36,199 bases of DNA, from positions 1 through 36,199 of the forward strand of contig JAAYZF010000477.1 in assembly GCA_012514975.1 (NCBI GenBank), read 5' to 3'. Below, piece by piece: positions 10,180 to 35,696 of the stretch. Below the pieces are notes generated by a model that was not told the origin of the DNA, made no database searches, and saw only the letters and a list, made by a program, of their open reading frames with translations. The translations under genes were made by a program, and so were the position numbers. The DNA is from a bacterium (GTDB lineage Bacteria > Auribacterota > UBA3054 > JAAYZF01). Each line of letters begins with the position of its first letter. Positions within the stretch are counted from its first letter, which is position 1.

Positions 10180-11478
10180 TCACCCCATGTTCCTGACAAG
10201 GGAGAAATCCCCCGTTCTTGCCGCCGCAAGAATGGGGGCCATGTATTCATCCACCAGCCCCGCCGAGAGCGGCACGGGCATGTTCTTCAGTTTCGATTCG
10301 AGCTGCGGGTTCTTCGCCGCGGCAAGTGCGCGCGCGACATGTGCATCGGTGAACCCGGGGACTTCGCCCAGCGTGGCCGGGAAACCGACGTCCTTCGACA
10401 GCGCGATCATCGCCTCGGCAACGGCGATGCCGAGGTCCCGCCCCTTGAGCGCGGCGGCATCAGCCTTGAGATATCCGGCGTCGCGGTAGATCGCCGCGAC
10501 CGCGCGCAGCTTCTCCTCGATCGCCGGGGCGAAGAACACGACGTAATACGGGTTCATCACCGCGCATGCGCGGCCATGCGGCAGTATGTCCACGAGCGAG
10601 AAGCTTGTCAGGTGCGCCCCGTTGGTGCCACCGATCATGATCGCGTAGCCGCCCAGGTCGGTGCCCAGCCCGAGCGCTTCGCGCGCGGGGAGGCTGCCCG
10701 GGTCGGCGCAGCAGGCCTTGATGCTGTGCACGATCAGCTCGATGCCTTTGAGGCAGACGGGCCGCGCCTGTTCGAGCGCGGGGCCGGCGAGGCCCATGAA
10801 GACTTCGAGGCAGTGCGACACGCCGTCGAGCGCACCGTCCGTCGTCAATGCCGGCGGCGTGGATGCAGTCACGGCATAGTCGAACAGCGCCCTGGGCGGC
10901 ACGACTGCGTCATCGACGATCAGCAGTTTCTGCCCGGTGGCCATGTCGGTGATGTTTGCGTATTTCGTGAGATGCGCGCCCGAGCTGGCGACGAGCTGCA
11001 CGGCGACGAGCGGGAGGAGCGTGCGGTTCTCCGCCGCGAGCTTCGCCGCGACCTGGCCGACGCCGAAGTAGCCGCCGATATCCGGATGCCGGTCGCCAAG
11101 CGCGGCATACGCCACGGCGCCCTTTGCGGCATCGATGACACTGCCGCCGCCCAGCGCGACCACTACATCCGGCTCCTGGGCCCGCAGCGCTGCGGCAATC
11201 CTGAACACATCTTCGCGCGGCGCATTCGGCTGGGCGCCCGGGATGAACGGCCCGGCGAGCGCCACCCCGGCGGAGTTCAGGGATGCTTCGAGCGCTGCGT
11301 GCGCCGGCGCGGCCCATGCCATGCCCATGCCGTCCGCGACCACCGCGGCGCGACGGCCTGTCGCCGCCACCAGCGCGCCGATCCGTCCGAAACATCCAAG
11401 GCCGAAGACGTAGGCATCACGCTTGAACAGGTGAAGATACGCCGCCGCCTGCTTCTTGCTGCCGTCGAAATCAATCAT
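10180..11478 (-). CDS. Iron-containing alcohol dehydrogenase family protein
   Basis: ALGGGSVIDAAKGAV NAD-binding motif; TDGALDGVSHCLE and GTNGAHLTSFSLVDILPHGRACAVMNPYYV metal-binding region. Confidence 0.85.
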   Translation of the reverse strand: MIDFDGSKKQAAAYLHLFKRDAYVFGLGCFGRIGALVAATGRRAAVVADGMGMAWAAPAHAALEASLNSAGVALAGPFIPGAQPNAPREDVFRIAAALRAQEPDVVVALGGGSVIDAAKGAVAYAALGDRHPDIGGYFGVGQVAAKLAAENRTLLPLVAVQLVASSGAHLTKYANITDMATGQKLLIVDDAVVPPRALFDYAVTASTPPALTTDGALDGVSHCLEVFMGLAGPALEQARPVCLKGIELIVHSIKACCADPGSLPAREALGLGTDLGGYAIMIGGTNGAHLTSFSLVDILPHGRACAVMNPYYVVFFAPAIEEKLRAVAAIYRDAGYLKADAAALKGRDLGIAVAEAMIALSKDVGFPATLGEVPGFTDAHVARALAAAKNPQLESKLKNMPVPLSAGLVDEYMAPILAAARTGDFSLVRNMG

Positions 11479-11496
11479 GGAATCGATTCCTGGTCG

Positions 11497-12438
11497 TTAA
11501 GGTCTCTTCATCTCGACCGCGCGCAGCGCCGCTGAACAGATGCTCGTGTCGTCAAGCCCCGCGCGCGTGAGTATCTCGGCGTACGAGCCCGATTCGCCAA
11601 ACCGGTCGGGGATGCCGCAGCGCAGCACGGGCACGGGGACGCGCGCGCACAGCGCCTCGCACACCGCGCTGCCAAGGCCGCCGAGCACGCTGTGTTCCTC
11701 GACCGTCACGAGAGCGCCGGTATCGCGCGCGGCGCGCACGAGAAGCTCCTCGTCAAGCGGCTTGATCGTGTGCATGTCGATCACGCGCGCAGACACCCCG
11801 CCGGCATTGAGCAGCCCTGCCGCGCGCAGTGCGCACGGGACGAGCGTGCCGGTGGCAACGATCGTCACATCGGTCCCTTCACGCACGGCGATGCCCTTGC
11901 CGATGGCGAAGGGATGATCCGGCCCGTAGTCTTCCGTCACCGCCTCGCGCGAAAGGCGCAGGAACACCGGCCCGTCATGCGCAATCGCCGCGCGCAACGC
12001 CATGCGCGTCTCGGTGATGTCCGACGGCGCGATGACCGTCATGTTCGGTATCGCGCGCATGACGGCGATGTCCTCGACGGACTGATGGCTCGCGCCGTCA
12101 GCATAGTCAGACAGTCCGGCATAGCCGCCGACGAGCTTGACGTTGGCGCCGGCGTAGGCGACCTGCGCGCGCACCTGGTCGCCCGCGCGCAGCGCGATGA
12201 ACAGGGCGAACGTGCTGACGACGGGAATGCAGCCGGAGGCGGCAAAGCCCGCCGCGGCGCTCACCATGTTTGCCTCAGCGATGCCAAACGTGAAGAAGCG
12301 GCCGGGGAACCGCGCCTTGAACAGCTTCGTCTGCGTCGAGCTGCACACGTCGGCATCAAGCACGACGATCCGCTCGTTCGCCTCGCCAAGCGCGACAAGC
12401 TCCTCGCCGAATACAAGCCGCTGAGGTTTCGCCGTCAT
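11497..12438 (-). CDS. Transketolase C-terminal subunit
   Basis: MTAKPQRLVFGEELVALGEANERIVVLDADV..., FFTFGIAEANMVSAAAGFAASG, SHQSVEDIAVMRAIPNMTVIAPSD. Start moved to MTAKPQ. Confidence 0.92.
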   Translation of the reverse strand: MTAKPQRLVFGEELVALGEANERIVVLDADVCSSTQTKLFKARFPGRFFTFGIAEANMVSAAAGFAASGCIPVVSTFALFIALRAGDQVRAQVAYAGANVKLVGGYAGLSDYADGASHQSVEDIAVMRAIPNMTVIAPSDITETRMALRAAIAHDGPVFLRLSREAVTEDYGPDHPFAIGKGIAVREGTDVTIVATGTLVPCALRAAGLLNAGGVSARVIDMHTIKPLDEELLVRAARDTGALVTVEEHSVLGGLGSAVCEALCARVPVPVLRCGIPDRFGESGSYAEILTRAGLDDTSICSAALRAVEMKRP

Positions 12439-12462
12439 GTGAAATGTGGAACCGGTATCTTT

Positions 12463-12490
12463 GAAACTCGAAACTCGAAACTCGAAACTC
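12463..12490. repeat. 4 x 7-bp tandem repeat (GAAACTC)
   Basis: GAAACTC GAAACTC GAAACTC GAAACTC read directly; 24 bp upstream of the transketolase C-subunit ATG. Confidence 0.95.
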
Positions 12491-12502
12491 GAGCGAGCGG
12501 TG

Positions 12503-12874
12503 TCAGCGTTCTTTCGGCCCGACGCGCGTTTGCCTGATGAAGGCATTCAGCTTCGGGCCCAACTCGTTGACGAGTTTTGTATACTCCTCAACACGTGCCG
12601 GAGATGAAATCACGCCCCGGCGTATGGCTTTTCGCAGCCATGCTTTCGTCTCCTCGAATGAGCCGCGCGCGATATGATAAAAGCGTTTACGGTCGTTGAG
12701 GGCATACCTGCCGTAGCCTTCGGCAATGTTCGAGGCGATGCTGTCAACCGCCCTGACAATCTGGTACCCGATTGTCTTCTGAACCTTCTCCAACCACGTG
12801 TCAAAGTCATGCCACACCATATCCGAAAGCTGCTCAGCCAGACGGTACACGTCGAGTTCGTAGACTTCGACCAT
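12503..12874 (-). CDS. Four-helix bundle protein, 23S rRNA intervening-sequence protein (S23) family
   Basis: 123 aa; YQIVRAVDSIASNIAEGYGRYALNDRKRFYHIARGSFEETKAWLRKAIRRG is the S23/IVP core; strong SD (CAGGAGGAGACCATG). Confidence 0.92.
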   Translation of the reverse strand: MVEVYELDVYRLAEQLSDMVWHDFDTWLEKVQKTIGYQIVRAVDSIASNIAEGYGRYALNDRKRFYHIARGSFEETKAWLRKAIRRGVISSPARVEEYTKLVNELGPKLNAFIRQTRVGPKER

Positions 12875-12953
12875 GGTCTCCTCCTGAAAATCCCTATGAA
12901 GTGTTGCGGCTAGAGGGAATGTACAGCGGTTGCCAAAACGAACACTCCCTATC

Positions 12954-12981
12954 AGGTCTCAAGTCTCCAGTTTCGAGTTTC
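12954..12981. repeat. Degenerate inverted 7-bp array
   Basis: AGGTCTC AAGTCTC CAGTTTC GAGTTTC, approximate reverse complement of the GAAACTC array at 12463-12490. Confidence 0.85.
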
Positions 12982-12993
12982 AAGGTGAACCTG

Positions 12994-13860
12994 TCACTTC
13001 CCAAGCTCCTCCTTCGCCGCGCGGTAGTCCTCGGCGCCGATCTGCTTGCCGTGCCACTCGCTCTTTCCCTCCATGAACGAAACGCCTTTGCCCTTGACGG
13101 TGCATGCGATCACCACGCGCGGCACCGGGCCCGCTGCCGCGCCGGTCGCCCAGCGCAACGCCGCATCGAGCCGTGGAATGTCGTGTCCGTCGCACTCCCT
13201 TACCGCCCAGCCGAACGAGCCGAACTTCGCCCGCACATCGAGCAGCGGCATTACTTCCTGCGTCGTGCCGTCAAGCTGGACGTCGTTCTTGTCGACGATG
13301 ACAGCCAGATTCGACAGCTCGTACTTGCGCGCGGCCATGAGCGCCTCCCAGATCTGCCCCTCGTTCAGCTCCCCGTCGCCGACGAGGACGCAGACGCGGC
13401 TGTCTCTTCCCGCCAGCCGCGCGGCGAGCGCCATGCCGATGCCCGCGGAGATGCCCATGCCGAGCGATCCCGTCGACATCTCGACGCCGGGCACTTTCCG
13501 CATGTCGGGATGGCCCTGCAGCATCGAGCCGGTGCGCCGCAGCGTCGGGAGCGCGTCTGCGCCGAAGAAGCCGCGCGCGGCGAGCACGGCGTACAGCGCG
13601 GGCGCCGCATGCCCTTTCGACAGGATGAACCTGTCGCGGTCCGGCCACGCGGGATCGTCGGGCTTGACGCGCAGGTGGCGTGCATACAGCAGCCACAGGA
13701 TTTCAACACACGAGAGGGAACCGCCCGTGTGGCCCGATTGCGCGGCATGGATCATGTCCACGATCGTGTTGCGCAACGACCGGCACTCGCGGGCGAGCCG
13801 CGCGGCCTCGGGGCGTGTCAACCTGCCTGCTGACGCGGCATGCCGTGTGGTCTCATTCAT
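12994..13860 (-). CDS. Transketolase N-terminal (TPP-binding) subunit
   Basis: SGHTGGSLSCVEILWLLY, SKGHAAPALYAVL, LVGDGELNEGQIWEALMAARKYELSNLAVIVDKN, GHDI. Confidence 0.93.
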   Translation of the reverse strand: MNETTRHAASAGRLTRPEAARLARECRSLRNTIVDMIHAAQSGHTGGSLSCVEILWLLYARHLRVKPDDPAWPDRDRFILSKGHAAPALYAVLAARGFFGADALPTLRRTGSMLQGHPDMRKVPGVEMSTGSLGMGISAGIGMALAARLAGRDSRVCVLVGDGELNEGQIWEALMAARKYELSNLAVIVDKNDVQLDGTTQEVMPLLDVRAKFGSFGWAVRECDGHDIPRLDAALRWATGAAAGPVPRVVIACTVKGKGVSFMEGKSEWHGKQIGAEDYRAAKEELGK

Positions 13861-14686
13861 TGTTGTACGCGTGCAGCAGCGGCGCGAGGAACGCGGTCGC
13901 CTCGCGCGCCGCCGTGTCAGGATCGGGCGTCGGCAGTATCTCGACCGCGGCCCACCCGTTGTACCGTGCCGCCTTCAGCGCGGCGAACACGGCCTCGAAA
14001 TCAAGATGGCCCCGCCCGGGCGCCAGCCGGTTCGAATCAGCCAGATGCAGATACTTCACCAGCGGCGCATGGCGCACCAGCGTGTCGCCGATGCGGGCAT
14101 CCTCGATGTTCATGTGGAACACGTCAGGCATCAGCCCCGCGTTCGGGCGGGCGACAGCCGCGAGCAGCGCCGCCCCTTCGTCCACTGTGTTGATGAAGTT
14201 GATCTCGTAGCGGTTGACCGGCTCGATGACCAGCGTCACGCCGCGCGGCGCCGCGCAGTCGCACAGGCGGCGCATGCACTCGACGAAATTCCCCTCGGCC
14301 TGTGCGCGCGTCTGGCCATCCGCGATGCCGCCGCGCGCGCGGCCGATATTGACCGTTCTGCCGAAGCGTCCGGCAAGAGCGATCAGCTCCTCGAACACCT
14401 GCACGGCGCGACCGCGCACGGCATGGTCAGGATGAGTGAAGCACAGGCCGAGACACGCGAACACCTGTCCGGTGCTGATCGCGCTCACGGCAAGGTGTTC
14501 GAGATCGAGCAGCCGGGCGAGCTTCTCCGCATCGACGTCACCGGCCGTCTTCAGCGCGAGCTCGACGCCCCGATAGCCGCACGCCGCAGCCTTGCGGATC
14601 GAGTCGTCGAACCCGCGCCAGACGACGAATGCGTTCGGCGGCGCGCCGGCATCGGCAATGGCGATCGAGAGGTCCATTCGCGGCAT
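13853..14686 (-). CDS. Xylose-isomerase-like TIM-barrel sugar (phosphate) isomerase/epimerase
   Basis: LVIEPVNRYEINFINT, DVFHMNIEDARIGDTL, YLHLADSNRLAPGRGHLDFEAVFAALKAARYNGWAAVEI; overlaps the next gene by 8 bp. Confidence 0.85.
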   Translation of the reverse strand: MPRMDLSIAIADAGAPPNAFVVWRGFDDSIRKAAACGYRGVELALKTAGDVDAEKLARLLDLEHLAVSAISTGQVFACLGLCFTHPDHAVRGRAVQVFEELIALAGRFGRTVNIGRARGGIADGQTRAQAEGNFVECMRRLCDCAAPRGVTLVIEPVNRYEINFINTVDEGAALLAAVARPNAGLMPDVFHMNIEDARIGDTLVRHAPLVKYLHLADSNRLAPGRGHLDFEAVFAALKAARYNGWAAVEILPTPDPDTAAREATAFLAPLLHAYNNE

Positions 14687-27107: not shown

Positions 27108-27131
27108 GTCAGTTGCTCTGCAATCGCGCTG

Positions 27132-27159
27132 TTAGTCGTTAGTTGCTGGTCGTTGGTCG
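27132..27159. repeat. 7-bp-periodic micro-array, 4 units
   Basis: TTAGTCG TTAGTTG CTGGTCG TTGGTCG, between argB and argD. Confidence 0.85.
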
Positions 27160-27196
27160 TCCCCGGCAGTTCCAGCTGCGTACCGGTCACTGAATA

Positions 27197-35141: not shown

Positions 35142-35165
35142 CTGGAATGATGGAATGCTGGAATG
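35142..35165. repeat. 8-bp-periodic micro-array, 3 units
   Basis: CTGGAATG ATGGAATG CTGGAATG; final unit contains the predicted start codon of the next gene. Confidence 0.85.
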
Positions 35166-35696
35166 CGCAAGCTTGAGGTCATAGCATCTGGGTTCGGAGG
35201 CCAGGGCATCATGGTCCTGGGCAGAATCCTTGCCCAGGCCGGCATGCGCGAGGGCATGCACGTCACCTTCCTGCCCAGCTACGGCTCGGAGATGCGGGGC
35301 GGGACGGCGAACGTGCAGGTGATCCTGAGCGACGCGCCGATCAGCTCGCCCCTTATCGTCACCGCGGACGCGCTGATAGCGATGAACGAGCCGAGCGTCG
35401 TCAAGTTCGCCGGGCGCGTGCGGCCGGGCGGCATCATCGTCATCAACGAAAGCCTCGGCGCCGCGCCGGCACATCCACCCGAGAACGCGCGCGTCTGCAT
35501 GGTGCCGTGCACGCAGATGGCAATAGACCTCGGAAACGAACGCGTCTGCAGCATGATCGCCCTCGGCCGTCTTGTGCGCGAGTCGGCCGTTGTGCCGCTC
35601 GACAGCATCGTCGCACAGATGAAGGTGCAGACGGCGAAATACGCTGCAATGCAGGAGTTGAACGAGAGAGCCCTCAGGCTCGGGTACGGCGGCTAG
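35163..35696 (+). CDS. 2-oxoacid:acceptor oxidoreductase gamma subunit
   Basis: SGFGGQGIMVLGRILAQAGMREG, SYGSEMRGGTANVQVILSD. Confidence 0.9.
   Translation: MRKLEVIASGFGGQGIMVLGRILAQAGMREGMHVTFLPSYGSEMRGGTANVQVILSDAPISSPLIVTADALIAMNEPSVVKFAGRVRPGGIIVINESLGAAPAHPPENARVCMVPCTQMAIDLGNERVCSMIALGRLVRESAVVPLDSIVAQMKVQTAKYAAMQELNERALRLGYGG

Follow-up and report, generated by a model that had tools for sequence, protein, structure and literature searches.

A probable small mobile repeat element with an S23 gene and inverted heptamer arrays between split transketolase genes

The insert between tktN and tktC

Why does a gene for a 23S rRNA intervening-sequence protein lie between the two halves of transketolase? 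In the window, by which we mean the whole 36,199-nt stretch of DNA that was analyzed (contig C461 of a 4.1-Mb draft genome of 484 contigs, 76% complete), the host genes tktN (transketolase N-terminal half, PF00456, 12994–13860, minus strand) and, downstream of it, tktC (C-terminal half, PF02779/PF02780, 11497–12438, minus strand) are separated by 555 bp, counted from the tktN stop to the tktC ATG (12439–12993). This insert encodes, in operon direction, a four-helix-bundle protein of 123 aa (12503–12874, minus strand) of the S23 / 23S_rRNA_IVP family. The product passed the curated cut-offs over the full domain of both PF05635 (77.7 bits, cut-off 33.8, 9.4e-22) and TIGR02436 (84.7 bits, cut-off 24, 4.7e-24), and a related solved structure is XCC0516 (PDB 2gsc_A, E 8e-8). 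By homology tktC starts at the ATG at 12436–12438; the long frame 11497–12546 (minus strand) crosses one of the arrays described below, and automatic gene calling would lengthen tktC through that array (12439–12546), with 'SSFEFRVSSFK' as a spurious N-terminus.

The S23 ORF is framed by two tandem arrays, and the element measures roughly 525 bp from array to array. The outer array (12461–12492, plus-strand numbering; the 3' arm in operon sense) holds (GAAACTC)x4 on the plus strand at 12463–12490, which is (GAGTTTC)x4 in operon sense, and was found by TRF at 12463–12492 with 100% matches. The second array (12954–12983, plus-strand numbering; the 5' arm) consists of four imperfect copies, GAAACTC GAAACTG GAGACTT GAGACCT in operon sense and AGGTCTC AAGTCTC CAGTTTC GAGTTTC on the plus strand (12954–12981). 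An inverted-repeat search paired 12461–12488 with 12956–12983 (28 nt, 86% complementary, 467 nt apart), and in operon sense the arms show three G-U pairs and two true mismatches. This agrees with the original prediction, which placed an S23 ORF within inverted heptamer arrays between the tkt halves and let the arms pair over 28 positions with about two mismatches. The arrays are not a product of chance, since three consecutive GARACTY units occur nowhere else in the 4.1-Mb, 76% complete genome and since the arm-complementarity score of the locus (36) lies above the 99% null (26). Chance or an assembly artefact was also rejected because the same pattern is present in isolate genomes, e.g. of Xanthomonas arboricola, Brucella and Pedobacter. 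Dispersed solo arrays of the window unit GAAACTC were not found in the window's incomplete genome. Two ORF-less arrays of other units were seen in the window, a direct array of GTTAGTC x4 (27131–27160) between aminotransferase- and acetylglutamate-kinase-like ORFs, and a direct array of three copies of a TGGAATG-type octamer (35142–35166) past a prolyl-tRNA-synthetase-like ORF, which resembles the repeat unit found at L002, another S23 locus of this genome.

That the tkt halves usually abut, as had been claimed, was confirmed by spacers of −5 to 41 bp in at least 15 relatives from the phylum whose tkt genes are split. The site is empty in these relatives, so the element is not fixed, and among the relatives compared an S23 element was present at the tkt junction only in the window. 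In four genomes (L337, L338, L344 and L349) the junction instead carries a short inverted hairpin array that is ORF-less. Where such an array starts at the end of tktN it provides the stop codon of the gene (TAAGCAG in L344, TAATCAG in L349), and L344 shares its unit, GTAAGCG/A, with S23 element L092 elsewhere in the same genome. The tkt spacers at L331:2295–2413 and L347:2292–2567 (118 and 275 bp) contain other low-complexity repeats with no clear inverted pair or hairpin, and are possibly decayed elements.

Repeat arrays at other S23 loci

The window's genome has 13 matches to PF05635, and most of these S23 loci have inverted short tandem arrays whose unit differs by locus (ATTGCCG, GATGTAC/GATGGAC, TTGATGAC, CGCACTGA, CTCGTC and others). 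For each S23 locus the 260-bp flank upstream of the ORF was aligned to the reverse-complemented 260-bp flank downstream, with mismatched pairs as the null. The phylum sample comprised 98 usable loci from 27 genomes, the kin being mostly draft MAGs; 74 of the 98 exceeded the 99th percentile of the null in inverted and 10 in direct orientation. The search for further S23 loci with flanking arrays that had been proposed as a check was thus positive. The 24 loci below the threshold, in a detection that relied on fixed windows, include some affected by contig ends, decay or a too short window. In other phyla 39 of 74 S23 loci exceeded their own 99% null, which was inflated by shared motifs. Most S23 genes sampled across bacterial phyla are framed in this manner, the repeat being a different one at most loci; the arrangement in the window is confirmed and generalises.

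Where arrays stood on both sides (105 loci) the period was 7 bp in 65, 8 bp in 33, 10 bp in four, 9 bp in two and 6 bp in one. In these loci an arm unit had a similarity of 0.76 to the opposite arm of the same locus, vs. 0.47 to the arms of other loci. The 5' array is rich in G and poor in C on the sense strand, and the 3' array is its mirror; homogeneity was slightly higher in the 3' arm (0.864) than in the 5' arm (0.843, p 0.008), and array copy number showed no difference between the two arms. Loci L010, L011, L012 and L013 encode longer S23-like proteins and have arrays of mostly 9-bp units inside as well as beside the gene; L012 has the four-helix suffix domain TIGR04258 and L013 is tandemly duplicated.

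The repeat is tied to the protein. In a tree built from 90 S23 proteins, the array period, with labels partly curated by eye, needs 10 changes, as compared to a mean of 16.6 after shuffling (0/200 shuffles as low), and S23 pairs above 70% identity have a common period in 97% of cases. Units become more alike the closer their proteins are: in same-orientation comparisons their similarity climbs from 0.43 to 0.73 as protein identity grows, whereas it stays flat near 0.42 across protein identity when one unit is reversed. These results show that the array period follows the S23 protein clade and that protein and unit sequence vary together, which holds for a single orientation of the unit. The proteins closest to that of the window (L148–L153, 59–69% identity) come from different gene junctions wherever the surroundings could be read. 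L149 (Lentisphaerota) has the GAAACTC unit of the window, in an array preceding a gene that, judged from its sequence, looks like xseB; GAAATT-type units occur at L150 and L151.

Dispersed copies and ORF-less derivatives

Three copies in one genome (L024, L029 and L032) are 83–86% identical over array, ORF and array and have no homology outside this unit, and array copy number differs between element copies. At L016 an element of 441 bp is matched in a congeneric species by a spacer of ~35 bp, a near-empty site, and in a third species by other repeats; the gene upstream ends differently in each species (NIRIS*, NIRNFDF* and DIRTAVVK*, translated by eye). One and the same junction can also hold different elements in relatives (L031/L032 and L008/L017). 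No target-site duplication was recognised. The S23 ORF runs with rather than against the operon by 91:6 at loci whose two neighbours are co-directional, with neighbour directions taken in several counts by a simple longest-ORF rule, and dN/dS of the S23 protein between copies is 0.05–0.17, i.e. purifying selection. Presence/absence polymorphism, dispersed copies, a sense-orientation bias and purifying selection are thus shown. A mobile unit inserted in the operon is supported because relatives have empty junctions, arrays frame 74 of 98 loci elsewhere and copies are dispersed, and to this extent the proposal of an IVS-like, possibly mobile operon unit stands; the mRNA stem that formed part of it fared differently, as described below.

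When 687 kb of contigs was surveyed for inverted array pairs 350–700 bp apart, the credible spaced pairs enclosed S23 or, in four cases, GxxExxY genes; exceptions were coding repeats of high GC content and a single pair within a long ORF. GxxExxY genes (PF13366/TIGR04256, PDDEXK_3, PDDEXK fold) have the same architecture with units of ~9–10 bp, e.g. CACAGAGGA or GCGGATTTA, and were seen within inverted arrays at L228:19415–19869, L229:916–1329, L232:2011–2441, L241:1714–2250 and L248–L277. Arms lay above the null, itself inflated, at 14 of 29 GxxExxY loci, and the orientation bias (16:2) is as for S23. The L228 gene is interrupted by a stop.

ORF-less arrays are common, and solo arrays lie near gene ends. 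Their similarity to S23 units is 0.676 within their own genome and 0.561 towards other genomes (p 1e-5), which shows that ORF-less arrays are derivatives of S23 elements. At L052:12953–13150 two inverted octamer arrays, 83 bp apart and ORF-less, enclose a sequence with a second palindrome, and this is probably a short hairpin derivative. X. arboricola has one S23 gene with GGGAATC-type arms, which sits between genes that, as we read the sequence, are presumably accB and accC. A three-unit pattern of this repeat gave 392 hits in the genome vs. 0–1 for the reversed-pattern control, and by eye, in the first 430 kb, seven of 14 plus-strand arrays were followed by a minus-strand array within 200 bp, with the minus-then-plus order absent. 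These are the GGGAATC repeats described in Xanthomonas as intergenic heptamer arrays of mostly four units, with 70–75 convergent inverted pairs per genome, and read as G4 (G-quadruplex) elements (PMC4692102). S23 is not mentioned in the main text of that paper; the unit is that of the arms of the X. arboricola S23 element. In Geobacter, tandem 7-/8-mers in inverted pairs between genes were described as putative global regulator sites (PMC2700814), with no link to S23; compared by their published description they resemble S23 arms in layout. The literature that we searched held no link between S23 and arrays outside rRNA, and subscription papers and bioRxiv, which were beyond our reach, may describe the class.

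Competing explanations and a model for the element

The original prediction read the arms as an mRNA stem, through which RNase III would excise or cut the insert in the way of an IVS and so uncouple the tktN and tktC messages. The 23S rRNA IVS of Coxiella burnetii is built alike, with a sense S23 ORF in about 430 nt, a 28-bp terminal inverted repeat, GACAGAT heptamer repeats in the 5' arm whose copy number varies by strain, and a stem that is cut by RNase III (PMC4990558). As in Coxiella, the window element has a sense S23 ORF within pairable terminal inverted repeats made of heptamers, and the Coxiella heptamers strengthen its kinship to rRNA IVSs; unlike the Coxiella IVS it is not in 23S rRNA but between the protein-coding genes tktN and tktC, and at each of its two ends the heptamers build up a complete array. 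The insert RNA also folds far better than shuffled sequences (z −6.4), and the 91:6 excess of ORFs in operon sense likewise speaks for this reading. However, selection on an mRNA stem would give an excess of G-U pairs on the sense strand, and at 70 loci the arm mismatches comprised 70 sense-strand vs. 72 antisense-strand wobbles (124 vs. 133 in a looser alignment), with no sense excess. Since the two are equal, the arms behave as DNA inverted repeats, and the claim that the wobbles point to a selected mRNA stem was not upheld. Nor did Rfam give a match in window 11000–14500. We therefore regard excision or cleavage as the purpose of the arms as rather unlikely; RNase III cleavage of the mRNA-resident element may happen as a by-product.

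Two other explanations are less probable still. S23 could be a domesticated nucleic-acid-binding host regulator with the arrays, solos included, as putative binding sites. This would suit the purifying selection, the co-variation of protein and unit, the solo arrays near gene ends and the reading of the paired opposite-strand Geobacter arrays as global regulator binding sites (PMC2700814), but it accords poorly with presence/absence at orthologous junctions, with dispersed copies, with several S23 genes per genome that each have their own unit, and with the exchange of one element for another at a single junction, and we consider it improbable. Least probable, in our judgement, is a passive origin of the arrays by slippage and hairpin-templated copying at junctions, where S23 merely tolerates or enters existing array pairs. 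The variable array copy number between copies and the abundance of ORF-less arrays could be explained in this way, but not so readily that the period follows the S23 clade, that units agree with the S23 of their own genome, or that spaced inverted pairs in 687 kb enclose nearly only S23 or GxxExxY.

Taken together, the segment is probably a small mobile repeat element, in which an S23 gene and inverted heptamer arrays form one unit of a widespread class. A GAAACTC-array element would have entered where the tktN stop meets the tktC start. Within the class, protein and arrays make up one unit, whose period (7, 8, 9 or 10 bp) goes with the protein clade and whose repeat sequence drifts along with the protein while its orientation stays fixed. 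The S23 protein, which forms a homopentamer in Xanthomonas, would recognise the strand-oriented, repeat-built ends and may drive their copying into gene junctions with the help of another enzyme. Both full elements and short ORF-less hairpins would be copied to gene ends, comparable to REPINs from RAYT genes.

In REPIN/RAYT systems one gene is flanked by inverted repeats, and many ORF-less hairpins of its repeat are dispersed between genes. The S23 class likewise has dispersed short derivatives (the 392 hits in X. arboricola; solos that match units of their own genome), but S23 is not a Y1 (HUH) transposase, only PF05635 matching the window ORF, and its ends are iterated 7–10-bp units with a sequence mostly private to each locus. 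Array architecture, mobility and solo derivatives together suggest a REPIN/RAYT-like element that is a sibling of the 23S rRNA IVSs. A DDE insertion sequence does not describe the window element, which has no transposase and has variable arrays as ends. The S23 fold is not known to contain a catalytic motif. Avd of diversity-generating retroelements has an S23-like four-helix-bundle fold, is a pentamer and works with a dedicated reverse transcriptase, whereas no reverse transcriptase was found in the window's 76% complete genome. RVT_1 was absent from this genome (G000) and from G002, both incomplete and both element-rich, which weakens the case for an obligate reverse-transcriptase partner. 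No transposase was identified as shared; those of the Y1 type are frequent across the phylum (33/44).

More tentatively, S23 and GxxExxY may act as mobility factors for tiny transposons with iterated 7–10-bp ends, which would form a class of their own across bacteria; in this class the protein would set the period and co-evolve with the unit, and rRNA IVSs and the orphan repeats of Xanthomonas and Geobacter would be members or derivatives of it. In environmental bacterial genomes the 'four helix bundle protein' is often met and has lacked an explanation; the present data recast it as a mobile-element gene with a cognate repeat, and they link 23S rRNA IVSs to relatives that reside in mRNA. They also offer one origin for heptamer arrays that were reported separately in Xanthomonas and Geobacter and were unexplained before. 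The function of S23 also becomes directly testable: does the protein bind or copy its own array, and is the length of the repeat set by its clade?
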